33,793 nt of DNA from Deltaproteobacteria bacterium (GTDB lineage: Bacteria > Desulfobacterota > Desulfuromonadia > Geobacterales > Pseudopelobacteraceae). The translations under genes and the position numbers were made by a program. Below the pieces are notes generated by a model, which did no database searches, was not told the origin of the DNA, and worked only from the letters and a program-made list of their open reading frames with translations. The stretch is taken from the NCBI GenBank assembly GCA_021778115.1, contig JAJYCS010000021.1:1-33793 (forward strand), given 5' to 3'. Of the stretch, positions 1-33,382 are shown piece by piece; within the stretch, counting starts at the first letter, position 1, and each line of letters begins with the position of its first letter.

Positions 1-42
1 CTATTAATGTACACGTAAAAACTCACTTGCCAGGTGAAGTGC

Positions 43-1386
43 ATGAAGCGTTTTGTCATTGAGCAGTCCGTTGATGAGTTCTACACCACCCATGCCGGGC
101 TCGCCTTCATCGGACCCGCCTTGAACCGTTTCACCACCCTTGCTTCTGCCTTGAGTGCCTTTGATGCTCCTGCTGACACCTATAGTGGCAAGGATGTCAT
201 CTTCAGCTTCTGTGCCCTGCTTGCAGAAGGCAAAAACGACTTTGTTGCCATCGAACAACATCGTAAGGACACCTGCTTCAGGGAGTCATTGGGCATCAAG
301 GCCGTGCCGTCTGAATCAACCCTGCGCCAGCGGATGGATGACCTGGCCTCTCAGTATCGTGCTCCTGTGTCCTGGGCCTCGGTCGAATTCCTGGAAAAGG
401 TCAAGGCGCCCGTTGGTCATCTTGCAACCGGCCATGTGCCGCTGGATGTTGATGGTTTTATCATGGACAACTCCGGCAGCAACAAAGAACAGGTCAGTTG
501 CACCTACCAGAAGGTGGACGGCTATCTGGCACTACCTGCCTACCTTGGTACCGAGGGTTGGATGATCAACCTGCACCTGCTACCCGGTTCACAACATCCC
601 CAGAAGGAGTTTTCCTTCTTCATCCGGGAAACACTGGGGCGTGTACGTCAGTTCTGCAAGAAAAAGCTCCTGTTGCGTATGGATTCTGCCCATGACGCCA
701 TTGACAACCAGCATGAGCTGTCACGGCATGACAAGCTTGACTGGATCATCAAATGGAATCCGAGAAAGCAGGACCTTGCCGCCTGGGCTGATCGTGTCTT
801 CACTGCAGGCGAAGTCACCATACCCCGTCCCGGCAAACGGATCGGTACCATGAGCATCAAAGAGAAGCAGAGCTTCACCGATTCAGACGGCATTGAACGA
901 AAGGTTACGCTCCGTCGTGTCATCCGGGTTACTGAGCGCAAAACCGATAGAAAAGGCCAACAGCTCATGTTTCCCGATATTGAGCTTGAAGGCTGGTGGA
1001 CCAGCCTTAAGGTTTCAGACCAGGAGGTGATTGACCTGTACAAGGGACATGCCACCTGTGAACAGTACCACGCCGAGATAAAGACCGACATGGACCTTGA
1101 GCGGCTACCGTCAGGCAAGTTTGCCACCAATCAGTTGGTGATGGCCTGCGGCGCCTTGGTCTACAATATCCTGCGCTTCATGGGTCAGAGCGCTTTGGTA
1201 AACGCAAGCGGTATCATCAGGCACAATGCCAAACGCAGACGGATCAAGACGGTCATGCAGGAATTGATCTACTGTGCCGGAAGGTTAATCAGCAGCGGCC
1301 GACGCCTGAAGCTTCGGTTCAGTTGTCATATGCAGGCCCATGCGCACGTGTTTGCCGTTTTGTACCAACGACTTGCCTACGGGTAG
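43..1386 (+). CDS. IS1380-family DDE transposase
   Basis: This is a cut-and-paste transposase of about 447 residues, the normal length for IS1380. Using numbering from an upstream in-frame GTG at 34, the likely catalytic acidic residues are D138/D140 in PLDVDGF, D217 in LLLRMDSAHD and E343 in GHATCEQYHAEIK, which gives the DDE order and spacing of the DDE_Tnp_1 group. The ATG at 43 is preferred because AGGTGA lies 5 nt upstream; the GTG at 34 has no such site. The frame is uninterrupted, so the enzyme is probably functional. A TTGCCTA-CGGG-TAGGCAA hairpin overlaps the stop codon. Family assignment is from motif recognition. Confidence 0.85.
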   Translation: MKRFVIEQSVDEFYTTHAGLAFIGPALNRFTTLASALSAFDAPADTYSGKDVIFSFCALLAEGKNDFVAIEQHRKDTCFRESLGIKAVPSESTLRQRMDDLASQYRAPVSWASVEFLEKVKAPVGHLATGHVPLDVDGFIMDNSGSNKEQVSCTYQKVDGYLALPAYLGTEGWMINLHLLPGSQHPQKEFSFFIRETLGRVRQFCKKKLLLRMDSAHDAIDNQHELSRHDKLDWIIKWNPRKQDLAAWADRVFTAGEVTIPRPGKRIGTMSIKEKQSFTDSDGIERKVTLRRVIRVTERKTDRKGQQLMFPDIELEGWWTSLKVSDQEVIDLYKGHATCEQYHAEIKTDMDLERLPSGKFATNQLVMACGALVYNILRFMGQSALVNASGIIRHNAKRRRIKTVMQELIYCAGRLISSGRRLKLRFSCHMQAHAHVFAVLYQRLAYG

Positions 1387-3345: not shown

Positions 3346-4319
3346 GTGGGTGATCAATCAGGCAAGCCAAAGTTGCTCGACCAGCTGAGAGACCGCATCC
3401 GCCTGAAACACTACAGCAGGCGCACCGAAGATGCCTATCTGGATTGGACCAAGCGGTTCATACTGTACCATAACAAGCGGCACCCGCAAGAGATGGCAAG
3501 CCGGAGATAGAGTCGTTTTTGACGTATCTGGCGGTTGAGCGCAAGGTGGCGGCAGCTACTCAGAATCAGGCGCGATCGGCGTTGTTGTTCCTCTACAAAG
3601 AGCTGCTCGCAATTGATCTGCCGTGGCTCAACGATGTGGAGCCGGCCAAGAAGCCGAAGAAGATGCCGGTGGTGTTGACCGAGCAGGAGGTGCAGCGCCT
3701 GCTGGCCAAGCTGCCTGAAAGCTGGTCGCTGCTGGGACGACTGCTATACGGCACCGGCATGCGGCTGTTGGAGGCGCTACGCTTGCGGGTGCAGGATATT
3801 GATTTTGAACGCTGCGAGGTGATGATCCGCGATGGCAAGGGTGGCAAGGACCGGGTGACGATGCTGCCACACACGCTGGTGCAGCCGCTTCAGCAGCAGT
3901 TGACGTTTGTGCGCCGGTTGCATGCGCGTGATCTTGCCGACGGCTATGGTGAGGTCTGGCTCAGCGAGAGCCTGACCCGCAAGTATCCCAAGGCCGGCCG
4001 CGAGTGGCGCTGGCAGTATGTCTTCCCTTCGATGCGGTTGTCGGTTGATCCCGCTTCTGGCATGACCCGGCGGCATCATCTGGATGAGAAGGGGCTGCAA
4101 CGGGCCATCCGCCAGGCTGCCGATGATGCTGGTCTGACCAAACGGGTCACCCCCCATACCCTGCGGCACTCCTTTGCTACCCATCTATTGCAGGCGGGGT
4201 ATGATATCCGTACGGTGCAGGAACTGCTGGGCCACAAGGATGTGCAGACCACCATGATCTATACGCATGTGTTGAACAAAGGCGGCAGGGGCGTGACGTC
4301 GCCCTTGGATAGAATATGA
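3346..4319 (+). pseudogene. intI: Integron integrase intI, frameshifted near codon 50
   Basis: A tyrosine recombinase that inserts and excises gene cassettes at attI and attC. The GTG at 3346 (GAGGTG upstream) gives the N-terminal SAM-like domain (KPKLLDQLRDRIRLKHYS, then [18 protein letters not shown]). The frame then runs into TAG; the protein continues one frame away from 3498 ([19 protein letters not shown]). One missing G in a presumed ATGGGCAAG at 3493-3500 explains it. The rest is intact: arginine in [16 protein letters not shown], the IntI-specific insert [37 protein letters not shown] and the nucleophile tyrosine in MIYTHVLNK. An internal start would lack the N-terminal DNA-binding domain. 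A sequencing error is the alternative. Confidence 0.88.
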
Positions 4320-6770: not shown

Positions 6771-8516
6771 TCAGCTGTAGCAGGGTGCCTGGTCGGTCAA
6801 CCGGGCCAGTTCGTCGCGCAGTTCATTGATATCCAGCGGCTTGCTTAGATAACCGTCGAACCCCTCAGCCAGCAGGCGCTCCCGGTCGCCCTGCATGGCA
6901 TAGGCGGTGACGGCGATGATCGGGATATGGCCCCCTACGGCCTGTTCTTGTTGGCGGATGGTGGCGGTTGCCACCCGTCCATCCATCACCGGCATCTGGA
7001 TGTCCATCAGGATACCGTTCCAGGCAGCCTCGCGCCAGCGTTCAAGGGCCTGACGCCCATCCTCCACCACCTGACTCCGGTGTCCCAGACGATGCAGGAT
7101 CTTCTGGAGGGTGCGGGCGTTCAGCGGGTTGTCTTCAGCAATCAGCAGGTTCAGCTGGTTTTCTGCCGGTGGCGCCCCTGCCGTATCGGATTGTGACATA
7201 TCGCGGCGCTCTTTGGGGTCGGGGAGCAGGAACGGCAGTTCCACCGTAAAGGTGCTCCCCTGGCCAGCGACACTTTCAGCCCAGATGCGGCCTCCCATAA
7301 GGTCTGCCAGACGGCGGCAGATGGCCAGCCCCAGCCCGGACCCTCCGTATCGGCGCGTCGATGAATTGTCTGCCTGCTCAAAGGGGTCGAATATCCGGGC
7401 AAGGACCTGCGGCGGCATGCCGATGCCGGTGTCCGCGACCTCCAGACGGATGGTGACACGGCCGGCATCGTGGGCCACCAGGTGTGCCGCAACGCTGACG
7501 CTCCCCTGTTCCGTAAACTTGATGGCGTTGCCTAGCAGGTTGAACAGGATCTGCTTGAGCCGCAGCTGATCGCCGATCAGTTCGTCAGGGATCTCGTCGG
7601 GCAGATGGAGGTTCAGTCCCAGCCCTTTCTGGGTGATGCGGGTCAGCTGGTTGGTGAGCACCTCCTGCAGGGTGCGGTGCAGGCTGAAGACGGCGGTTTC
7701 CAGGTCCAACTTGCCTGCCTCGATTTTCGACAGGTCCAGGATGTCGTTGATCAGGGTGATCAGGTTGTTGCCGGATAGCTCAATGTTGTCGAGATATTCG
7801 CACTGTTCGCCGGTCAGCGGGGTAAAGCGGAGCAGTTGGGCCATGCCGATGACGCCGTTCATCGGGGTGCGGATCTCGTGACTCATATTGGCCAGAAACT
7901 CGCTTTTTGCCCGGTTGGCCGCCTCGGCCGCCTGGACCGCCTGTTCCAGCTCCGCAGTCCGCTCAGCCACCCGCTGTTCCAGTTCCTGGGCCTGTTGTTC
8001 TATCTGGCGGAAACTCAAGGCGTTTTTGAGGGCCAGGGCGATCATCGGGGTCAGCGGTCTGATGGTGGTGTCGATCTCATCGATCCGGTTCAGTCCGGGT
8101 AGATCGAACAGCACCAGCAGCCCCACCAGTTCACCGGCCGCCTTGAGGGGATAGCGGATGCAGGACTGGACGCCGCAACGCCGTAACGGCGGATAGAGCG
8201 GATGGTCGACGGCAAGCTGGGCCGTGTGGGCCGGGAGGTCGCCGGGGGTCCGTTCCGGGCAGAACAGTACCAGCTCCTCGGCGCGCAACAGCGTACGGCG
8301 CCGTGTAGGGCTGACGTCCAGCAGTTCATGCCGGGTCGGCTGCCGCAGATGCGCCAGGATCATCACCGTCCGGGCCCCGGTCAGCTCCCGTAACTGCTCG
8401 GTCAGCACCTGTCCCAGCCGATGGGGTGAGGTGGAGGCCAGCAGCTCGGCGATCACCTCCAGGGTCATGGATTGTGCGGCGGTGGTGATGGGATTCAAGG
8501 TGGGTGCGATGGTCAT
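6771..8516 (-). CDS. Soluble GAF-domain hybrid sensor histidine kinase
   Basis: A 581-residue cytoplasmic kinase with no membrane segment. Residues about 16-165 look like a GAF sensor domain; about 165-205 is a coiled coil ([26 protein letters not shown]). HisKA follows with the phospho-acceptor H213 in [14 protein letters not shown]. The HATPase has [20 protein letters not shown] and [11 protein letters not shown]-terminal receiver (about 450-575) has AEDN, the acceptor aspartate in [10 protein letters not shown], and the KPLD lysine. Its ATG overlaps the DUF1638 stop (ATGA), so it is co-translated with the corrinoid module and probably senses a ligand related to it. No partner regulator lies nearby; the internal receiver may be a phosphorelay step. 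Confidence 0.9.
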
Positions 8517-9118
8517 GGACGGTCCGTCCCGGCACGGAGGTGGGCATCCGCCTCAGCGGTCAGCAGCAGCTGGAGCATGGTGTCCAGGGTCACCGTCTCA
8601 ATGCGCCACGGCAGGCCGCTGTAGGCAGAAAAATCGGTCATCTGGCGGTGCGGCACCGGCACCAGGCCGGTGTCCAGGTAAACGAGGGAACTGCGATGCT
8701 CACGCATCAGGTCTTGGGCTATCGGGTGCGTCAGCCCCAGTTCGTCCTGCATGATCCGCTCCCAGCGGTCCGCCCATTCCGGTAATACCAGAAAGGCCCC
8801 CTCGCGCATCAGGTGGCGGTAGCGGTCCCGTCCCAGCAACAGTTGGGCGCAGTTGATCGCGTCAATCCTGCCCACCCGGTACGACGTGACCAGATCCAGC
8901 ATCCGGCTGCAGCAATCGCCATAGACCAGGACCAGGCAGGCCGGTGTCTGGAGGCGCTGCTCCAGGGCGGCGGTCAGGGCTGTCTCCAGTCTGGGGGGGT
9001 CCATATGCAACATGGAGTCGAGAAAGTGCAGCCGACCCCGGATCAGTCCCTGACGGTGCAACGCCTCAAGCTCGGCCCGCACCACCCCGCAACTGAGCCA
9101 GACCGTACCGTTGTTCAT
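8513..9118 (-). CDS. DUF1638 protein of a corrinoid methyl-transfer operon
   Basis: A 201-residue protein of unknown biochemical role. It carries the DUF1638 pattern: an N-terminal [12 protein letters not shown], then [17 protein letters not shown], then [32 protein letters not shown] and [14 protein letters not shown]. The conserved cysteines (SCG, YGDCC, INC) could bind a metal or take part in thiol or methyl chemistry; that is inference. DUF1638 genes are, to my knowledge, often beside corrinoid proteins and MtaA-like methyltransferases in methanogens and anaerobes, and that is the case here. Start and stop overlap both neighbours by ATGA. Confidence 0.82.
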
Positions 9119-10149
9119 GCTGGGCAGCCCTTCCCCGCCGCGTAATCGCTGCTGGCGGCAAGCAGGGCGTGCAGGTTTTCGGGTGGTGTCGTCAAGGCGA
9201 TATCGGCGCCGGCATTGGCCAGGATGTAGTGACCGGCCGGTGCGGCACTGCGCAGGCAGGCCATGGCCTTGTGGTAGAGCTCATCTGCAGACAACGACGA
9301 GAAGCTCAGGTTGTCCAGATTGCCGATCAAGTTTAGGTCGGGGCCAGCCAGGGTACGGGCCTGGGCCAGGTCATCCTTCGAACCGATCGCCACCGCTGCC
9401 AGCCCTGCCAGGCCAGGCAGCAGATCAAGGGTATGGTTGATGCTGCCGCCGGTCTGGTGCATGACCTTGGGCCCCTGCACCTGGGCGAAGGTGCTGCGCA
9501 GGTGGGGCAGGGCCAGCTCGGCAAACAGGCTGCGGGGGGCAATCTCGGCGGCCGCCATCCCCTCGGTCACCACCAGACAGTCGGCGCCGGCCTGGAGCAG
9601 CGCGTTGCACCAGGCCACAAAAAACGGGCCGGTATGCTCCAGCAGCTCCCGGGCGGTTGGCTGGTCAAAGAGGATGGTCTCCATCCACGGCCCCAGGCCG
9701 ATCACCAGCGACGGCAGTATGGCCGGCCCAGGCACCACACCGATGATCGGCACCGTTTCCTTGTACTGCGTTGCCAGCATCCTGGTGGAGGCGAGGATTG
9801 CCGGCAACCTGCCGCTTCGGGCAGGGTCGGGCAGGGGCAGTTTGAGGGCCGCCTGCGCGTTGTCCACAGCCGGCCGTTTCATGTTGGGGGGCTGGTCGTC
9901 AAACCAGGTCACCGTGCCGCCGAAGGCCTCGGCAATGGCGCTGTAGTCGAACGGGGACATCACCAGGTCGAAGCCAAAGGACTCCTGTGCCGCCTGCTGG
10001 CCGGCCAGCCAGGCCGCCGGGTCTCGGTACAGCGTGGGGAGGCCGGTATTGGTCAACTTCCCACCGTAGGCCCCCAGCACCGCCAACACCGGCACCCGAT
10101 CCACCGGTTGCCCCGTCAGGGTGCCCATCAACCGTTGATAGGCGTTCAT
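9115..10149 (-). CDS. Uroporphyrinogen decarboxylase/MtaA-family protein
   Basis: A 344-residue TIM-barrel protein of the URO-D superfamily, which includes corrinoid methyltransferases such as MtaA and MtbA. The start MNAYQRLMGTLTGQPVDRVPV is characteristic, and its ATG is 1 nt after the corrinoid gene stop. GPAILPSLVIG, GADCLVVTEG and TPPENLHALL also fit the family. The zinc-binding HxC of MtaA is HQT here (231-233), and the later GC is NAGAD (312-316), so two expected cysteine ligands are absent. It may therefore use another ligand set, bind no zinc, or have a binding role. True haem biosynthesis (HemE) is unlikely given the partners. Confidence 0.8.
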   Translation of the reverse strand: MNAYQRLMGTLTGQPVDRVPVLAVLGAYGGKLTNTGLPTLYRDPAAWLAGQQAAQESFGFDLVMSPFDYSAIAEAFGGTVTWFDDQPPNMKRPAVDNAQAALKLPLPDPARSGRLPAILASTRMLATQYKETVPIIGVVPGPAILPSLVIGLGPWMETILFDQPTARELLEHTGPFFVAWCNALLQAGADCLVVTEGMAAAEIAPRSLFAELALPHLRSTFAQVQGPKVMHQTGGSINHTLDLLPGLAGLAAVAIGSKDDLAQARTLAGPDLNLIGNLDNLSFSSLSADELYHKAMACLRSAAPAGHYILANAGADIALTTPPENLHALLAASSDYAAGKGCPA

Positions 10150-10150
10150 G

Positions 10151-10813
10151 TCACCCTCCGGCCTGGGCCGCGGCCTGGAGCCGCGTGCAGAGCTCGTCGG
10201 CCCCCACGGCGTTGCGGGCAGTGCCGTCGCCCCCCACCTCGGCCACCAGTTCCGGCCGCCAGTTGAAGACCGCCCCACCTACCCCCAGCTTTATCCGCTG
10301 CTGCAGACCGCGGGCATCTATCAGTTCACGCAGGTTACGGATGTTCAGGGCGGTGGTCTGCATCATGGCCGACGCGGCCACCACCCGGGCCCCCACCGCC
10401 AGCGCCGTGTCAATGAACCGCTCGGCCGGCACGTCATTGCCCAGATCGTGGACCTCCCAACCGGCAGCGGTCAGAAACAGGGTGACGATACGGCGGCCGA
10501 GGCTGTGAAAGTCGTCTTCAATATTGCCGATGACCACGGCCCCTTTGGTAGGGGGAGAATCCCCGGTTTCCGGGATGCAGCGCAGCATGACATCTTCGGC
10601 GATCTTGGCCGCGACAAACCCCTGAGCCAGGGAGAGGGTCTCCTCTTCCCAGCCATGGCCGAGTCGGATCAGGGCCGGATCGAGGATCCCGCTGATGACC
10701 TGTATCGGGGGGATGCCCGTCTCCAGGGCCTGCTCGATGACGGCTGCAGCCGCCATGCGATCGGAGACGATCATGGTTTCCAACAGCCTGTCGCTCCAGT
10801 CCTGAAGCGCCAT
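10151..10813 (-). CDS. Corrinoid (B12-binding) protein, MtbC/MttC-like
   Basis: A 220-residue protein that would carry a methyl group on cobalamin between methyltransferases. Residues about 5-85 form the helical cap (B12-binding_2: MIVSDRMAAAAVIEQALETGIPP, ILDPALIRLGHGWEEETLSLAQ). A Rossmann-like domain follows with the cobalt-ligand motif DFHSLG (DxHxxG), HDLGNDVPAERFI, ASAMMQTT and VGGAVFN. The ATG at 10813 has GGAG upstream; longer in-frame extensions to 10966 have no family similarity. It is the first gene of a four-gene operon with the UroD-like, DUF1638 and kinase genes. No substrate-specific methyltransferase (MttB, MtaB type) is next to it. Confidence 0.88.
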   Translation of the reverse strand: MALQDWSDRLLETMIVSDRMAAAAVIEQALETGIPPIQVISGILDPALIRLGHGWEEETLSLAQGFVAAKIAEDVMLRCIPETGDSPPTKGAVVIGNIEDDFHSLGRRIVTLFLTAAGWEVHDLGNDVPAERFIDTALAVGARVVAASAMMQTTALNIRNLRELIDARGLQQRIKLGVGGAVFNWRPELVAEVGGDGTARNAVGADELCTRLQAAAQAGG

Positions 10814-26034: not shown

Positions 26035-26739
26035 CTACATGCCCAGAAATGCCTTCTTGACATGGTCGTTGCCCAACAGCTCCTGCCCGTCGCCGCTTAA
26101 CACCACCCGGCCGGTCTCCAGCACGTAGGCCCGGTGGGAGATCTTGAGGGACTGGTAGACGTTCTGCTCCACCAGCAGGATGGTAACACCCTGACGGCTG
26201 ATCTCCTGGATGATCTCGAAGATGATCTTGACAAAGAGGGGAGAGAGCCCCAGGGAGGGCTCATCCAGGAGGAGCAGTTTGGGGTTGGCCATCAGCCCCC
26301 GGGCGATGGCCAGCATCTGCTGCTCCCCCCCGGACATGGTGCCCCCCAGCTGTTTTTCCCGTTCCTTCAGGCGTGGAAAGAGGCTGAAGGCCCGTTCGAT
26401 GTTGGCCTGGCGATCCTTGCGGGTACCTTTCAGGTAGGACCCCATCAGCAGGTTCTCCATCACGGTCATCTCCGGGAAGATCTTGCGCCCCTCCGGCACC
26501 TGGACGATCCCCCGTTCCACCACCTGATGGGATTCGAGCCCTTTCAGGTCTTCGCCCAGAAAGGTGATGGAGCCGGACGACGGTTTGACCAGCCGTGAGA
26601 TGTTCTTGAGGGTGGTGGACTTGCCGGCCCCGTTGGCGCCGACCACGGTGACAATCTCACCCTGGTGCACCTCCAGGCTGATATCCCACAGGACCTGCAG
26701 ATCGCCATAGCTGAAGTTGAGTTTGTCGATGATAAGCAT
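26035..26739 (-). CDS. livF: Branched-chain amino acid-type ABC transporter ATPase LivF
   Basis: A 234-residue cytoplasmic ATPase. Walker A GANGAGKST, Q-loop region RGIVQVPEGRKIFPEMTV typical of LivF, signature MSGGEQQMLAIARGL, Walker B LLLLDEPSLGL and switch His replaced by the LivF-type LLVEQNV. With LivG it powers the transport pore. It is fourth of the five transporter genes in the operon order H-M-G-F after livK, 25 nt downstream of livG. Confidence 0.95.
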   Translation of the reverse strand: MLIIDKLNFSYGDLQVLWDISLEVHQGEIVTVVGANGAGKSTTLKNISRLVKPSSGSITFLGEDLKGLESHQVVERGIVQVPEGRKIFPEMTVMENLLMGSYLKGTRKDRQANIERAFSLFPRLKEREKQLGGTMSGGEQQMLAIARGLMANPKLLLLDEPSLGLSPLFVKIIFEIIQEISRQGVTILLVEQNVYQSLKISHRAYVLETGRVVLSGDGQELLGNDHVKKAFLGM

Positions 26740-26764: not shown

Positions 26765-27478
26765 TTAGTCCTGGCCCAGATAGGCCGCTATCACGTCGGG
26801 GTTGCTGACGACTTCGTGGGGGTTCCCCTCGGCCAGTTTCTCCCCCGAGTTGAGCACCACGATCCGGTCGGAGATCCGCATGATCGCCTTCATGTCATGC
26901 TCGATCACCATCTGGGTGATGCCGCGCCCCTTGATATCCAGGATCAGCTGGATGATTTCGGCACTCTCGGCCGGGTTCAGCCCCCCCATCACCTCGTCCA
27001 GCAGGAGCAGCTTCGGCTGGGTCGCCAGCACCCGGGCAACCTCCAGCTTTTTCCGTTCGCCGATCGGCAGGCCGCCTGCCGGGAACCGGGCCTTTTGCTC
27101 CAGACGGACGACCTTGAGCTGTTCCATGGCCAGTTCGCCGGCTATCTTGAGTGAGTTGGTGCGGCACAGGGCCCCCACCATGACGTTGTCCAGCACCGAC
27201 AGTTTGGCCAGGGGGCGTACCTTCTGCCAGGTACGGGCCATGCCCAGCTTGCAGACCTTGTTGGGCTGCAGGCCGTTCATCCGGCGGCCGTCAAAGAGTA
27301 CCTCCCCCTTTGACGGGGGGTAATAGCCGGTGATGCAGTTGAACAGGGTGGTCTTGCCGGCGCCGTTGGGGCCGATCAGTCCCATGATCATCCCCTGCTC
27401 AAGTGCGAAGGAGACATCGGCATTGGCCGCCAGGCCGCCGAAAAACTTGCTGACATGCTTGATCTCCAGGATAGCCAT
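26765..27478 (-). CDS. livG: Branched-chain amino acid-type ABC transporter ATPase LivG
   Basis: A 237-residue ATPase. Walker A GPNGAGKTT, LivG-type CITGYYPPSKGEVLFDG, GMARTWQKVRPLAKLSVLDN at the Q-loop, IGERKKLEVARVLATQPKLL as the degenerate signature region, Walker B LLLLDEVMGGLNP, and VIEHDMKAIM with the switch histidine. It lacks some of the C-terminal tail residues of longer LivG proteins but is of plausible length. The livM stop shares one base with its ATG (TGATG). Confidence 0.95.
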   Translation of the reverse strand: MAILEIKHVSKFFGGLAANADVSFALEQGMIMGLIGPNGAGKTTLFNCITGYYPPSKGEVLFDGRRMNGLQPNKVCKLGMARTWQKVRPLAKLSVLDNVMVGALCRTNSLKIAGELAMEQLKVVRLEQKARFPAGGLPIGERKKLEVARVLATQPKLLLLDEVMGGLNPAESAEIIQLILDIKGRGITQMVIEHDMKAIMRISDRIVVLNSGEKLAEGNPHEVVSNPDVIAAYLGQD

Positions 27479-28560
27479 CAGGCCTCACCCCCTTTGCGGC
27501 GTGCGGTCAGTTTTTTGAGGAAACCCAGTATTCCGTCCGGCATGAAGAGGATCACGATCACCACCAGGATGCCGTATATGAGGGTGTGGGCGTGGGCCAG
27601 GTTGTCGTTGAGAAAACCGCCGAATTTGGAATCCGGGGAGACGAGGCCGATCTTGAAGATGAGGGAGGCGATCAGGTTGCTCCGCAGGGCCTCGGAGAGG
27701 GGCACCAGCACCAGGGCGCCGATCACCGGGCCGAAGATGGTGCCGATGCCGCCGATGATGCAGATCAGCACGATCTGCACCGAGATGTCGAGGGCCATCA
27801 CCGTGGGGGGGTCCACAAAACCGACGTAGATGGCGTAAAAGCTGCCAGCCAGGGAAGTGAGCATGGCGGAGATGACCAGGGCGATGTTCTTGTAGAGGGT
27901 CAGACTGATCCCCAGGGAGTGGGCTGCGTCCTGATCCTCACGGATGGCCTGGAAGAAGTACCCCAGCTTGGAGTGCTGTACCAGCCAGGTGACCAGGATG
28001 GTCAGCAGGGCAAGGGCCAGGCCGATGTAGTAGAAGGGGACCTTGGTGCTGAAGTCGGTGATCACGGTCTCCCCGATGGTAAAGGGGGGCAGCCCGGTGG
28101 CGAGGATCCCTTCGGCGCCGTTGGTGAACGACGGCAGGTTCAGGGTACAGAGCCGCAGGATCTCGGCCACGGCGATGGAGGCCAGGACGAAATAGGGCCC
28201 CCGGAGCCTGAAACAGATGGAGCCGATCACCAGGGCCACCACCAGGGCTGCCGCCAGTCCGACCCAGACTCCGTACCAGGGGGCCACCTGCCGAAACTGC
28301 AGCATCATCATGGTGGCGTAGGCGCCGGTGCCGAAATAGGCGGCGTGACCTACTGAATACTGGCCGGTGTAGCCCCCCAGGATGTTCCAGCTCTCACCCA
28401 TGATGGTGCTGAGGAAGATAAGGATCATGATATGGAGCAGATAGGGGTTGTGGACGAAGAACGGTACGGTGCACAGAGCTGCGCATACCGCCAGTACGGC
28501 GATGATGGTAACGGTGGAACGGCCCGAGGTATCTGCAAAAAGTGTTCTGAGTGTGGTCAT
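27478..28560 (-). CDS. livM: Branched-chain amino acid-type ABC permease LivM
   Basis: A 360-residue permease with about ten helices. Family segments seen are MGESWNILGGYTGQYSVGHAAYFGTGAYAT split across residues 55-85, RGPYFVLASIAVAEILRL, the cytoplasmic coupling loop FQAIREDQDAAHSLGI, and GGIGTIFGPVIGALVLVPL near the end. It pairs with LivH to form the pore. It begins 15 nt after livH. Confidence 0.93.
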   Translation of the reverse strand: MTTLRTLFADTSGRSTVTIIAVLAVCAALCTVPFFVHNPYLLHIMILIFLSTIMGESWNILGGYTGQYSVGHAAYFGTGAYATMMMLQFRQVAPWYGVWVGLAAALVVALVIGSICFRLRGPYFVLASIAVAEILRLCTLNLPSFTNGAEGILATGLPPFTIGETVITDFSTKVPFYYIGLALALLTILVTWLVQHSKLGYFFQAIREDQDAAHSLGISLTLYKNIALVISAMLTSLAGSFYAIYVGFVDPPTVMALDISVQIVLICIIGGIGTIFGPVIGALVLVPLSEALRSNLIASLIFKIGLVSPDSKFGGFLNDNLAHAHTLIYGILVVIVILFMPDGILGFLKKLTARRKGGEA

Positions 28561-28575
28561 TGCGGTGGATCCCCG

Positions 28576-30114
28576 TTACATCCTGGATTTGCCCATAAGG
28601 CCGGAAGGTTTGAACAGCAGTACCAGCAGGAACAGGACGAATACCACCACATCCTTCCAGCCGGAGGAGATGTAGACCGCCCCCATGGATTCGGCTACCC
28701 CGATGATGATCCCCCCCAGGGTGGCGCCGACGATGCTCCCCATCCCACCCAGCACGGTGATGACAAAGGCCTTGAGGGTGAAGGTGCTCCCCACCTGCGG
28801 GAAGATGTAGTAGGTGGGGGAGATCAGCGCCCCGGCGGCGGCGGCCAGGGAAGAGCCGAGGCCGAAGGCGATGATGGACATCCGTTTGACGTTGATCCCC
28901 ATCAACTGCGCCGCCTCGCGGTCCTGCGCCGTTGCCCGGATCGCCTGGCCAGTGTTGGTCTTCATCAGGAACCAGTACAAAAGCAGGGTGATCCCGCAGG
29001 TGATCACAAAGGAGATGGCCAGCGGCGTAGAGACCGATATCCCGGCGCCCCGCTTATCGGGCTTGGCCTTGAAGGGGGGCTGGTAGGCGTCGTAGGCCTT
29101 GGCCAGCAGGGCCCGGGCCGCGGCGCTGCTCGTGCCGGAGAAGTCGGGGGCGGTGCTGTCGTCGCTGGTGGAGGCGGCGGCAATGGCGGCGCCGTACTGC
29201 TCCAGGGCCTTTTTATACTGGGCGTCGGCGGTCGGGCCGCTTTGCTGTTTGGCCAGCAGGTAGTGCAGCAGGGCCGAGCCGTTCAGGCCGGCAACGCTGT
29301 CGGAGTTCGAGTCCAGGCCGGCATCCAGCTTCTGCGCCGCCTCCGTCAGGAGGCGTTGCGCCTCCGCCCCCTGTTTTTGACCGGCCTGGTGCAGCAGGGT
29401 CCGCGCCCAGTTGTACTTGATGTCGAAGTCATCGGGGCTTAGCTTGTCCGCTTCGGTGAATTTGGCGTAGGCCTGCTCGAACAGGCGGTCCGCCGGGTTC
29501 CCCTTCGTCAGGTTTGCCTGGCCATCCAGGGCGATCCCCCAGTTGTTGAGGGCACGGTACTGTTCGGGGTGAATCGACACGGCCTCGGCGAATTTTTCGC
29601 TCGCCCTGGCGTAGAGGGCGGCCTTATCGGTTGCTTGCGCCTTGTGCGCCTTTTCCAGCAGGGCGTTGCCCCGGTTGTAGCGCCGTTCGTATCTGTCGGG
29701 GTTGACGATGGTGGTGAGAGCCTGGAAGCTGGCCGACGAATACTTGGTGGTCAGGATCTTGTAGTCGGAGGTGAACACCAGCATCATGGTATTGCTCATG
29801 ATCAGCCCCAGTCCGATGGTCAGCAGGATCTGGTTCTGGGGGAGGGCGTTCAACACCCGGTTGATGAAGACCTTCTGCAGGAAACCGCCGTACAGGAACA
29901 TGAGCGGGATGATGAGCAGCACGGAGACAAAGGGGTCGATATGGCCCAGGGTGAACAGGTAGTAGGCGAGGTACATGCCGAGCATCAGGATATCGCCGTG
30001 GGCGAAGTTGATCACCCGCATCACGCCGAAGATGATGGTCAGACCAATGCCGATCAGGGCGTAGACGCCGCCGACCAGTACCCCGCTGACGAGGGATTGG
30101 AGAAAGATGGTCAT
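28576..30114 (-). CDS. livH: LivH-type ABC permease with a TPR-like insertion
   Basis: A 512-residue permease; ordinary LivH is about 300. Residues 1-135 give the N-terminal helices (IGIGLTIIFGVMRVINFAHGD, NQILLTIGLGLIMSN). Residues about 136-350 are extra: helical, charged and alanine-rich, with TPR-like units such as ASEKFAEAVSIHPEQYRALN and AYAKFTEADKLSPDDFDIKY. From about 360 the permease resumes (LLLYWFLMKTNTGQAIRATAQD, GINVKRMS, VLGGMGSIVGATLGGIIIGV). The frame is open throughout, and the insert replaces a short loop between helices, probably on the periplasmic side. It may bind the substrate protein or another partner. It lies second in the operon, about 107 nt after livK. Confidence 0.9.
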   Translation of the reverse strand: MTIFLQSLVSGVLVGGVYALIGIGLTIIFGVMRVINFAHGDILMLGMYLAYYLFTLGHIDPFVSVLLIIPLMFLYGGFLQKVFINRVLNALPQNQILLTIGLGLIMSNTMMLVFTSDYKILTTKYSSASFQALTTIVNPDRYERRYNRGNALLEKAHKAQATDKAALYARASEKFAEAVSIHPEQYRALNNWGIALDGQANLTKGNPADRLFEQAYAKFTEADKLSPDDFDIKYNWARTLLHQAGQKQGAEAQRLLTEAAQKLDAGLDSNSDSVAGLNGSALLHYLLAKQQSGPTADAQYKKALEQYGAAIAAASTSDDSTAPDFSGTSSAAARALLAKAYDAYQPPFKAKPDKRGAGISVSTPLAISFVITCGITLLLYWFLMKTNTGQAIRATAQDREAAQLMGINVKRMSIIAFGLGSSLAAAAGALISPTYYIFPQVGSTFTLKAFVITVLGGMGSIVGATLGGIIIGVAESMGAVYISSGWKDVVVFVLFLLVLLFKPSGLMGKSRM

Positions 30115-30221: not shown

Positions 30222-31382
30222 TTACTTCCAGCGGGGGAAGGGATAGACCGGTTTTTTCGAGGTGAACTGCGGCGGATAGACGGTCTCGTGTTTGCCGTTC
30301 TGGATCTGCTCCACCAGCATCTGGTGGCGGTTCTGGTTGTAGTAGCCGTTGTAGTTGATGAACTGTACCTGCCCCATGATCCCGTTCCATTTGCCGGATT
30401 TGAGGATCTCCCGGAGTTTTTCACGGCTGCCGCCGGCCTTGGCCGCGCTCTCACCCATGATCATCATCGATTCATAGGCGGTTGAGGCGTGATAGGTCGG
30501 TTCCTTGCCGAAGCGGGCCTTATAGCGTCTGCCGAACTCCTTGGCGCCGGGCCAGTTGACGTCAGGGGTCCACTGGGTGCTGGAGAAGACGTTGTTGGAG
30601 ATCGCCTTTTCCTTGGCGAACTGGACCACGGAGAAGCCGGCGCCGGCCCCCAGGAAGGCGTGGGGCTGCAGGCCGATCTCGCGGGATTGCCGCATCAGCA
30701 GGATGGCATCGGCCACGTAGGAGACCATGAAGACCAGATCAGGCTTGAGGGCCTTGATCTTGGTGAGGGTGGAACGGTAGTCGGGGGAACCTTTGGAGTA
30801 GGACTCCTGGAACACCACCTTGATCCCCTTCTGGGCCGCCACCTTGCGGGCCGCCTGGGCTGCCGAGGTGCCGAAGTCGGTGTTCTCGTTGATGATGGCC
30901 ATGGTGTGCTGCTTGCCCAGTTTCATGGCCATGTTGATCAGGATGTCGGCGTAGTCGGTGGTGGTGGCGCTGAGACGGAAGAGCCAGTTGAGTTTCTGCA
31001 TGGTGATCTCATCCTTCGAGGCCACCGGCACCAATAGCGGCACCTGATACTTTTCCGCCACCTTGGCGATGGCATTGGCGCAGGCCGAGGAGTAGGGGCC
31101 CACGACGCCGATCACCTTGTCCCGGGTTGCCAGCTTCTCCATGGCGCTCATGGAGATCTGGGGTTTGCCGGTGTCGTCCTCCTTGATCATCTCGACGTCG
31201 ATCCCCTTCTTCTTGAGGTCCTCAAGTGCCAGGGTAACGCCGTTTGAGAGGTTCTCACCGATGGGGGCCTCGGGGCCGGTGATGGAGTTGATGAAGCCGA
31301 TCTTCACCTTCTGGTTCGCCTGTGCGGAGAGGGGTAGGGCCAGTGCCATAGCCAGCGCCGCTGCTGTGAACTTTTTCAACAT
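30222..31382 (-). CDS. livK: Periplasmic substrate-binding protein of the liv-type transporter
   Basis: A 386-residue type I periplasmic binding protein. The signal peptide is residues 1-22 (KKFTAAALAMALALPLSAQA). The mature part begins NQKVKIGFINSITGPEAPIGENLSNG, with IGVVGPYSSACANAIAKVAEKYQVPLL split over residues 90-120, FGTSAAQAARKVAAQKG, PDLVFMVSYVADAILLMRQ, and a C-terminal FINYNGYYNQNRHQML. AAGGAGG precedes the ATG. The ligand is not certain: Leu/Ile/Val, other amino acids, amides and aromatic acids are all known in the family. It is the first gene of the operon and is expressed from a mixed sigma-54/sigma-70 promoter. Confidence 0.92.
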   Translation of the reverse strand: MLKKFTAAALAMALALPLSAQANQKVKIGFINSITGPEAPIGENLSNGVTLALEDLKKKGIDVEMIKEDDTGKPQISMSAMEKLATRDKVIGVVGPYSSACANAIAKVAEKYQVPLLVPVASKDEITMQKLNWLFRLSATTTDYADILINMAMKLGKQHTMAIINENTDFGTSAAQAARKVAAQKGIKVVFQESYSKGSPDYRSTLTKIKALKPDLVFMVSYVADAILLMRQSREIGLQPHAFLGAGAGFSVVQFAKEKAISNNVFSSTQWTPDVNWPGAKEFGRRYKARFGKEPTYHASTAYESMMIMGESAAKAGGSREKLREILKSGKWNGIMGQVQFINYNGYYNQNRHQMLVEQIQNGKHETVYPPQFTSKKPVYPFPRWK

Positions 31383-31557: not shown

Positions 31558-31596
31558 TGGCGGAAATCGGCCAACGGAGGTGGTCAATTTCCGCCA
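31558..31596 (-). promoter_or_regulatory. Perfect 10-bp inverted repeat, activator site or terminator
   Basis: TGGCGGAAAT (31558-31567) and ATTTCCGCCA (31587-31596) are exact complements 19 bp apart. The second arm is in the last codons of the response regulator gene. As DNA it lies about 115 bp upstream of the livK sigma-54 element, where enhancer sites for NtrC-type proteins are found. As RNA on the minus strand it folds into a long stem with a 7-nt loop followed by only TTT, so it could also end the regulator mRNA. Confidence 0.5.
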
Positions 31597-32975
31597 GGGG
31601 AGGGGGGGAGGTTGAGTCCGTACTTCTCCATCTTGTAGCGGAGGGTGCCGCGGGGGATCTTCAGCAGGGTAGCCGCCTGCAGCACATTACCGTTGGTGGC
31701 GGTCAGGGCCTGGGTCACCAGCTGCTGCTCAACGGTGGCCAGTGTCTGTTCCAGTCCCTGGGCGTCGAGGGGGAGGGGGAGAGCGGTCTCGGATGCGGCG
31801 GGGGAGGGATGGCGGAGATCAGCCGGGAGCTGTTCCGGGGCAAGCAGCGGCCCCTGGGACATGATGGTGATCCGTTCGATGATGTTCTTCAACTCTCGGA
31901 CATTGCCCGGCCAGGGGTAGTCCTCCAACAGCTGCAGGGCCGCCGGGGTGATCCCCTGGAACGACTTGCCGAAGGCTCGGCTGAAGCCATCGAGAAAGAA
32001 TTTTGCCAAAAGACCGATATCCCCATGACGTTCACGCAGCGGCGGCAGGTGGATCGGCACCACGTTTAGACGGTAGTAGAGGTCCTGGCGGAAGCTGCCG
32101 GCCCTGATCCGCTCCTCCAGATCCCGGTTGGTGGCTGCGATCACCCGGATATCCACCGGCAGATCCCGGTTCCCTCCGACCCGTCGCACCGACCGTTCCT
32201 CCAGAACCCGCAGCAGCTTGGCCTGCAGGGTGGCCTGCATGTCGCCGATCTCATCCAGGAAGATGGTGCCGCCGCTGGCCTCTTCGAAGAGGCCGTTTTT
32301 CCGGATGGCGGCGCCGGTGAAGGCCCCCCGTTCATGGCCGAACAGCTCGCTCTCTATCAGTTCCGCCGGGATTGAGGCGCAGTTGATCGCCACAAAGGGA
32401 TGGTCGCGACGGTCCGAGAGGGTGTGGATCGCCCTGGCCACCAGCTCCTTGCCGGTACCGGACTCGCCGGTAATCAGCACCGTGGCGGAGGGGATGCGGG
32501 AGACCTCCCGGACCAGGTCCAGGACCTTGAGAAAGGGGGGGCTGGAACCCAAAAGCCGGGTCTGTTCCCCCAGCTCGCTGCTGCGCCGCAGGCTGCGGAC
32601 CTCGCGACGGAGCTCCTGGGTCTGCAGGGCAAGTTTGACGATCACCCGCAGGGCATCGGCCTTGAACGGCTTTTTCATGTAGTGGTAGGCCCCCCGCTGC
32701 AGCGCCTCCACCGCCGATTCCACGGAACCGTAGCCGGTGATGATGATCACCAGGAGCTCGGGGTTCAGCTCCTTCATGGCGCTCAGCAGGGTCAGCCCCT
32801 GCTCCGGCCCCAGGTTCAGGTCAAGCAGGGTCAGGTCCACCTCTTCAGCGGCCAGGATATCCAGGGCCTGACGGCCATCGGCGGCCTCCAGCACCCGATA
32901 GCCGTCCTCCTGGAGAATCCGCTGGACGTTTTCCCGGATAAACGCCTCATCATCCACAATAAGGATCGTCTCCAT
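31584..32975 (-). CDS. NtrC-family sigma-54-dependent response regulator
   Basis: A 463-residue activator. Receiver at residues 1-120 with D8/D9, acceptor D52 in LLDLNLG and Lys in YMKKPF. The AAA+ domain (about 145-375) has Walker A GESGTGKE, the sigma-54 contact loop ERGAFTGA, Walker B GTIFLDEIGD, and the arginine-finger segment FRQDLYYRLNV. The C-terminal Fis-type helix-turn-helix (about 420-455) is NVLQAATLLKIPRGTLRYKM. It is the last gene of a signalling cluster and lies directly upstream of livK, which has a sigma-54 promoter, so the transport operon is the likely target. Confidence 0.95.
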   Translation of the reverse strand: METILIVDDEAFIRENVQRILQEDGYRVLEAADGRQALDILAAEEVDLTLLDLNLGPEQGLTLLSAMKELNPELLVIIITGYGSVESAVEALQRGAYHYMKKPFKADALRVIVKLALQTQELRREVRSLRRSSELGEQTRLLGSSPPFLKVLDLVREVSRIPSATVLITGESGTGKELVARAIHTLSDRRDHPFVAINCASIPAELIESELFGHERGAFTGAAIRKNGLFEEASGGTIFLDEIGDMQATLQAKLLRVLEERSVRRVGGNRDLPVDIRVIAATNRDLEERIRAGSFRQDLYYRLNVVPIHLPPLRERHGDIGLLAKFFLDGFSRAFGKSFQGITPAALQLLEDYPWPGNVRELKNIIERITIMSQGPLLAPEQLPADLRHPSPAASETALPLPLDAQGLEQTLATVEQQLVTQALTATNGNVLQAATLLKIPRGTLRYKMEKYGLNLPPSPGGN

Positions 32976-32980
32976 CGGGG

Positions 32981-33382
32981 TCAGCGAACCGTGCCCGGCA
33001 ATTTTTTGGGTGGGGCGGCCAGGACCTCGGCCACTACCTGGGAGAGCTGTTCGTAACTGATCGGCTTTGAGAGGACCCGTTCAATCGGCATCCGTGAGGC
33101 CATGGCCAGCAACACCTGCTGGGAGAGGGCCGGCGATCCGCCCGATATGGCGATGATCCTGGGGCGCAGCGGCTGTGAGACCAGGTGGATGATCACCTCA
33201 AAACCGTCCTGCTCCGGCATGACGATGTCGGTCAGCACCAGGTCGAACGGTTCTCCTTGCAGGATCTTGCGGGCCTCCTTGCCGTTGGTGGCGCTCGCCA
33301 CCTGATGGCCGTCATGGCGGAGAAACCCCTCAAGCACCATCCTGACCTGCGTATCGTCATCAATTACCAGAATGCGTGCCAT
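32981..33382 (-). CDS. Stand-alone receiver domain protein (CheY-like)
   Basis: A 133-residue single receiver domain. Acidic pocket D8-D10 in LVIDDDTQ, acceptor D52 in LVLTDIVMPEQDG and Lys in VLSKPIS are present; the usual Thr/Ser is in IAISGGSP. There is no output domain. It lies 5 nt before the NtrC-type gene and overlaps the kinase gene by 23 nt, so it may be an intermediate or phosphate sink between kinase and activator. Confidence 0.93.
   Translation of the reverse strand: MARILVIDDDTQVRMVLEGFLRHDGHQVASATNGKEARKILQGEPFDLVLTDIVMPEQDGFEVIIHLVSQPLRPRIIAISGGSPALSQQVLLAMASRMPIERVLSKPISYEQLSQVVAEVLAAPPKKLPGTVR

Follow-up and report, generated by a model that had tools for sequence, protein, structure and literature searches.

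LivH permeases of LivKHMGF importers belong to the PF02653 family, and their coupling segment faces the ATPases. To our knowledge, little is known of how soluble binding proteins locate importers of the Liv type and come to pause on them. In the long form of UrtB, the permease of the urea importer (for example Mitsuaria WP_067283752.1, 536 aa), the same PF02653 family is combined with a helical-repeat segment of ~230 aa which is presumably periplasmic; this extension is N-terminal, has a signal-like start and is weakly HEAT-like (PF13646, below cut-off). A long-form UrtB is encoded at L190:1290-2900; its ~230-residue segment is N-terminal and weakly HEAT-like, its start is signal-like, and it is a further example of a helical-repeat domain added to this permease family. 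In the maltose importer MalFGK2 the P2 loop of MalF contacts MalE all through the cycle, going by the titles of Daus 2009 and Grote 2009 as they appear in PMC3328499.

Here we describe a LivH-type permease encoded in a window of 33,793 nucleotides, by which we mean the whole stretch of DNA that was analysed. It resembles the known LivH/PF02653 permeases in family, in the genes of its operon and in an intact coupling motif, but differs from them by a TPR solenoid of 224 residues in its TM4-TM5 hairpin, where its orthologues have 6-7 residues. Long-form UrtB has its added helical domain before TM1, whereas the LivH insert is internal, lies between TM4 and TM5 and is of TPR type, and the two are not homologous by position or family. 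With MalF P2 it would share, if the proposal made below holds, a large folded periplasmic permease insertion which contacts the binding protein; however, MalF is of another permease family, P2 is another domain, homology is not claimed and contact with LivK is here only proposed. No published description of a LivH with a TPR insert was found in our search, which took in little of the subscription literature, and within the literature searched such a LivH, with its TPR insert predicted to lie in the periplasm, appears undescribed.

The livH gene and its operon

The genes are arranged in the order livK, livH, livM, livG and livF and constitute a complete livK-H-M-G-F operon.

30222..31382, minus strand: LivK substrate-binding protein (Peripla_BP_6, E 1e-63), 386 aa; proposed docking partner
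28576..30114, minus strand: LivH-type permease bearing the TPR insert, 512 aa; a single open frame, PF02653 in two stretches
27478..28560, minus strand: LivM, second permease subunit, without insert
26765..27478, minus strand: LivG ATPase
26035..26739, minus strand: LivF ATPase

The gene encodes the LivH permease of an ABC importer for branched-chain (or other hydrophobic) amino acids. PF02653 (BPD_transp_2) matched it with E 7.4e-42 and 143.8 bits (cut-off 26.8), in two pieces flanking residues ~133-355, and LivM, LivG, LivF and a Peripla_BP_6 protein are encoded in the same operon, as expected of the LivH type. The match to the NCBI LivH equivalog NF008011 is split by the insert and reached 130.8 bits, below the cut-off of 379; we therefore call the protein LivH-type and leave its exact substrate unassigned. 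No solved chain matching the LivH sequence was found by phmmer at E 0.01. The idea that this permease is shared by several binding proteins was rejected, as the three Peripla_BP_6 proteins of the genome sit on contigs (C36, C53 and C92) which also bear LivH-type permeases. Directly upstream of livK, the stretch 31584-33382 (minus strand) holds genes for an AtoC/NtrC-like sigma-54 response regulator and for a CpdR-like receiver. The regulator may control the liv operon; it is found close to that operon in several carriers of the insert and also in several non-carriers.

Structure and topology of the insert

Insert-free orthologues are ~288 aa long and align cleanly on both sides of the insert, having their short loop where ~230 residues stand here, a net gain of 224 residues. 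The original prediction had placed an insertion of about 215 residues at 29060-29710; its borders were right to within 10 bases, while its size was slightly low. It had also described a TPR-like domain which replaces a short loop between TM helices, in an open frame, in a class of permease normally lacking such a domain. All of this was borne out by the alignments, in which most orthologues are free of the insert, by the uninterrupted ORF of 512 aa and by the four helix pairs in the AlphaFold2 (AF2) model. The parts of the insert and its surroundings are as follows.

29722..29730, minus strand: strand 129-131, first of the two arms of the short beta hairpin bearing the insert (AF2 model)
29050..29718, minus strand: insert, LivH residues 133-355, missing from most orthologues (alignments)
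29572..29694, minus strand: TPR helix pair 1, residues 141-181 (AF2 model; invariant Y146, G149, N150)
29440..29559, minus strand: TPR helix pair 2, residues 186-225, the most conserved of the four (AF2 model; invariant R187, N191, G193)
29308..29427, minus strand: TPR helix pair 3, residues 230-269 (AF2 model; invariant N235)
29173..29295, minus strand: TPR helix pair 4, residues 274-314 (AF2 model)
29050..29172, minus strand: variable linker (315-329), capping helix (330-341) and exit segment to 355 with invariant K351 and D353 (AF2 model)
29029..29037, minus strand: strand 360-362, second hairpin arm (AF2 model)
28879..28962, minus strand: cytoplasmic coupling segment, LivH residues 385-412, KTNTGQAIRATAQDREAAQLMGINVKRM (sequence)

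Profile search and structure prediction, which had been suggested as checks, both pointed to TPRs. PF06552 (TPR-type) matched inside the insert with E 2e-5 and 24.9 bits (cut-off 20.6); among the six carriers scanned it was above the cut-off in three (the window, 24.9; G053, 25.2; G232, 24.6) and below it in G220, G051 and L007. With 16 close rows AF2 gave a poor TM region and a mean pLDDT of 60, which was cured by a 43-row alignment (mean pLDDT 89.6, pTM 0.62, mostly above 90 over the repeats). The model obtained in this way has four TPR helix pairs (141-158/161-181, 186-201/205-225, 230-245/249-269 and 274-290/293-314) and the capping helix, all borne at the end of a beta hairpin that joins TM4 to TM5 (AF2 helices 92-114 and 363-385). 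Comparison by VIA-align gave Z ~17 to TPR proteins over 134-174 residues, the listed matches covering mainly the TPR part (137-339), a concentration that leaves the TM fold barely tested by comparison with the PDB. The rmsd to consensus TPR and to the OGT TPR was 1.3-2.5 A over 134-140 residues, and the structural neighbours of the insert include the envelope protein NlpI and also PilF and MamA. The tandem antiparallel helix pairs of the model form a TPR superhelix with a repeat period, taken from the model helices, of ~44 residues and not the 34 of the TPR definition; as modelled, the insert is a long-helix TPR variant, which is 'TPR-like' in the strict sense. Linker 315-329 has zero invariant residues, and the invariant N150, N191, N235 and R187 fall, on mapping by hand, at positions of helix A which in other TPRs form the lining of the groove.

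The TM helix next after the insert (363-385) runs straight into the coupling segment KTNTGQAIRATAQDREAAQLMG; residues 385-412 we take to be this segment from our knowledge of ABC importers. Since the segment that the helix enters faces the ATPases, the insert is expected to be periplasmic. The K and R residues of LivH are concentrated on the predicted cytoplasmic loops and the C-terminus, and topology and charge distribution together indicate that the TPR insert should be located in the periplasm, over the permease mouth.

Distribution, selection and evolutionary history

A search for other LivH proteins with the same insert, also proposed beforehand, was productive and yielded six further assemblies. 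In all seven the insert is at the same site with its frame intact, and one of the seven is a single-contig genome. Identity to the insert of the window was 83% in G071, of the same genus, 56% in G053 (the single contig, from another genus of the family), ~40% in G051 (of that same other genus) and 35% in L007, a Desulfocapsaceae MAG; the carriers G220 and G232 come from two other families of the order. The window is one contig of a 107-contig assembly, which might raise the suspicion of an assembly chimera or of a frameshift artefact. However, GC3 of the insert (0.87) agrees with that of the core (0.89), and the insert recurs at one site in independent assemblies, the single-contig genome among them. 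This rules out an assembly artefact and makes a chimera or frameshift next to inconceivable. The original prediction was to be given up if an artefact at the ends of the insert went together with its absence from all close relatives, and its presence in G071 speaks directly against this.

The inserted form is rare and patchy, in a few soil and sediment bacteria. In the sampled class it was found in 6 out of 41 orthologues, the remaining 35 genomes having a one-piece orthologue (defined by E below 1e-140), and in the order of L007 it occurred in 1 of 258 genomes. None of the Holophagaceae loci examined had the insert, and a second copy was not found in the host genome. Even the genus-level group of the carriers G051 and G053 also holds the insert-free G049, G050, G052 and G054. 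As ~85% of the sampled orthologues do without it, the insert, which is fast-evolving besides, is dispensable for transport.

Identity to the window's insert ranges over 34-83%, whereas the permease cores are 84-98% identical among carriers. The dN/dS was 0.16-0.33 for the insert versus 0.03-0.13 for the core, and length changes preserve the frame; the insert is under purifying selection. These values bear on the view that a once-inserted TPR was merely tolerated in a permissive loop, had little function and was repeatedly lost or replaced by recombination with insert-free alleles. Such a passenger would suit the high divergence and the patchy spread, for which one operon tree demands four changes or more. 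But the dN/dS values, the intact frame and the invariants kept over long divergence imply that the fold is maintained, and a useless domain of 224 residues would be expected to decay, which makes this explanation quite improbable in our judgement.

In a tree of LivF, LivG, LivM and LivK, from which LivH was left out, the carriers stood in four places, requiring at least four changes, and a single clean gain is thus unsupported. The LivH-core tree is compatible with one origin of the insert, and in a larger tree with more rows some carriers joined, leaving about three places near the backbone. Since the inserts are homologous and have diverged far more than the cores, it is unlikely that the insert spread recently by itself. 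Relatives of the insert were not found in viral contigs or plasmids, and a mobile origin is unsupported. An old insert with several losses, perhaps via recombination with insert-free alleles, would fit these observations best.

Elsewhere in the phylum a profile of the insert matched stand-alone TPR proteins (E 3e-27 to 3e-11), so that its TPR flavour is a common one. The stand-alone Desulfobacterota proteins L053-L057 (PF06552-like, ~44-residue repeats) share the flavour NNWG..L...A...G.EA..L...A..KF..A....PD; unlike the insert they have open frames of their own of 576-969 aa, and none lies within a permease. In two of them, L054 and L055, an N-terminal part that by eye is SIR2-like precedes the 44-residue TPR flavour of the insert, and these proteins are possibly defence-related.

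Candidate partners of the insert

The original prediction had offered three functional options side by side: docking of the binding protein, capture of substrate and a link to an envelope partner. We tentatively favour the explanation that LivH gained a periplasmic four-unit TPR solenoid, which most likely serves as a docking platform for the operon's own LivK. LivH would have acquired the solenoid at the tip of the TM4-TM5 periplasmic beta hairpin, where it would stand over the permease mouth and hold LivK, perhaps by the C-terminal tail of LivK lying in the TPR groove; holding LivK would raise the local concentration or the dwell time of loaded binding protein. We favour LivK docking because of the probable periplasmic topology, the position of the loop near the periplasmic face, the analogy with MalF P2, by which binding of LivK by the TPR domain is proposed, and a weak association of the insert with the tail of LivK.

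In every carrier the inserted livH is accompanied by livK, livM, livG and livF. An association scan of all LivF, LivG, LivM, LivH-core and LivK columns, covering 41 operons and then 60 (2446 site/residue tests), gave two outliers, V113 of LivH and the third-last residue of LivK, an Arg, while the next best test stood at 3e-4. Within LivK, the strongest association with the insert is that of a residue in the following feature.

30225..30242, minus strand: LivK C-terminal tail PFPRWK, with the Arg at 30231-30233

This Arg is present in 7 of 7 carriers against 6 of 53 non-carriers (Fisher 4e-6). All seven carriers have the ending PFPRWK, and the others mostly PFPKWK or PFPGWK; PFPRWK is also the ending of four insert-free LivK proteins of the Geothrix clade. 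A Pagel-type test gave LR 18.9 (p 8e-4) for the Arg, the highest LR of the 15 top sites tested, and LR 21.4 (p 2.7e-4) for the strict motif, p values that fail correction for 2446 tests and come from fits whose rates reached the optimiser's bounds. The change from Lys to Arg is conservative, the association could be due to linkage (livK ends ~500 bp from the insert) or to common descent, and Arg-bearing non-carriers emerged in the larger sample. The LivK tail is thus a weak lead, drawn from residue patterns. A carrier-specific C-terminal extension of LivK was looked for and not found. The other outlier, V113 (29776-29778, minus strand; fragment position 112), is at the end of the helix preceding the insert and occurs in 5 of 7 carriers and in none of the 53 others; judged from sequence, it may mark an adaptation of the permease to the insert.

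In a more specific form of LivK docking, a periplasmic TPR clamp would grip the tail PFPRWK-COOH and leash LivK to the channel, tail and clamp co-evolving; this form we regard as unlikely. If true, such a clamp would be a tethering mode for importers.

TPRs being generic protein-protein modules, the domain might instead link the importer to some other envelope protein (an outer-membrane protein, cytochrome, pilus or protease) and so cluster or regulate the transporter without binding LivK. The likeness to NlpI, PilF and MamA and the optional, fast-evolving character of the insert agree with this. Among homologues of the window genes, however, none emerged as a constant companion of the carriers, and the association with the LivK tail would be left unexplained; we consider such a link possible, if somewhat unlikely. 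The groove of a TPR can also bind peptides, and direct capture of substrate (peptides, for instance), broadening the range of the importer, was an option raised in the original prediction. It is very unlikely that the domain acts in this way: the operon retains an ordinary Peripla_BP_6 protein with no strong carrier-specific change beyond its tail, and we know of no TPRs that are small-molecule scavengers. Docking of LivK, our preferred reading, would make the insert an optional, natural and well-folded candidate dock with insert-free orthologues as controls, so that the effect of a dock on affinity and transport rate is directly testable.

Other genes in the window

Near the start of the contig there are a DDE transposase (34-1386, plus strand) and a tyrosine integrase (3519-4319, plus strand), mobile-element genes without a link to the liv operon. 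A DUF1638 protein adjoins a URO-D family protein at 8513-10278 (minus strand), followed by a hybrid histidine kinase at 6771-8516.
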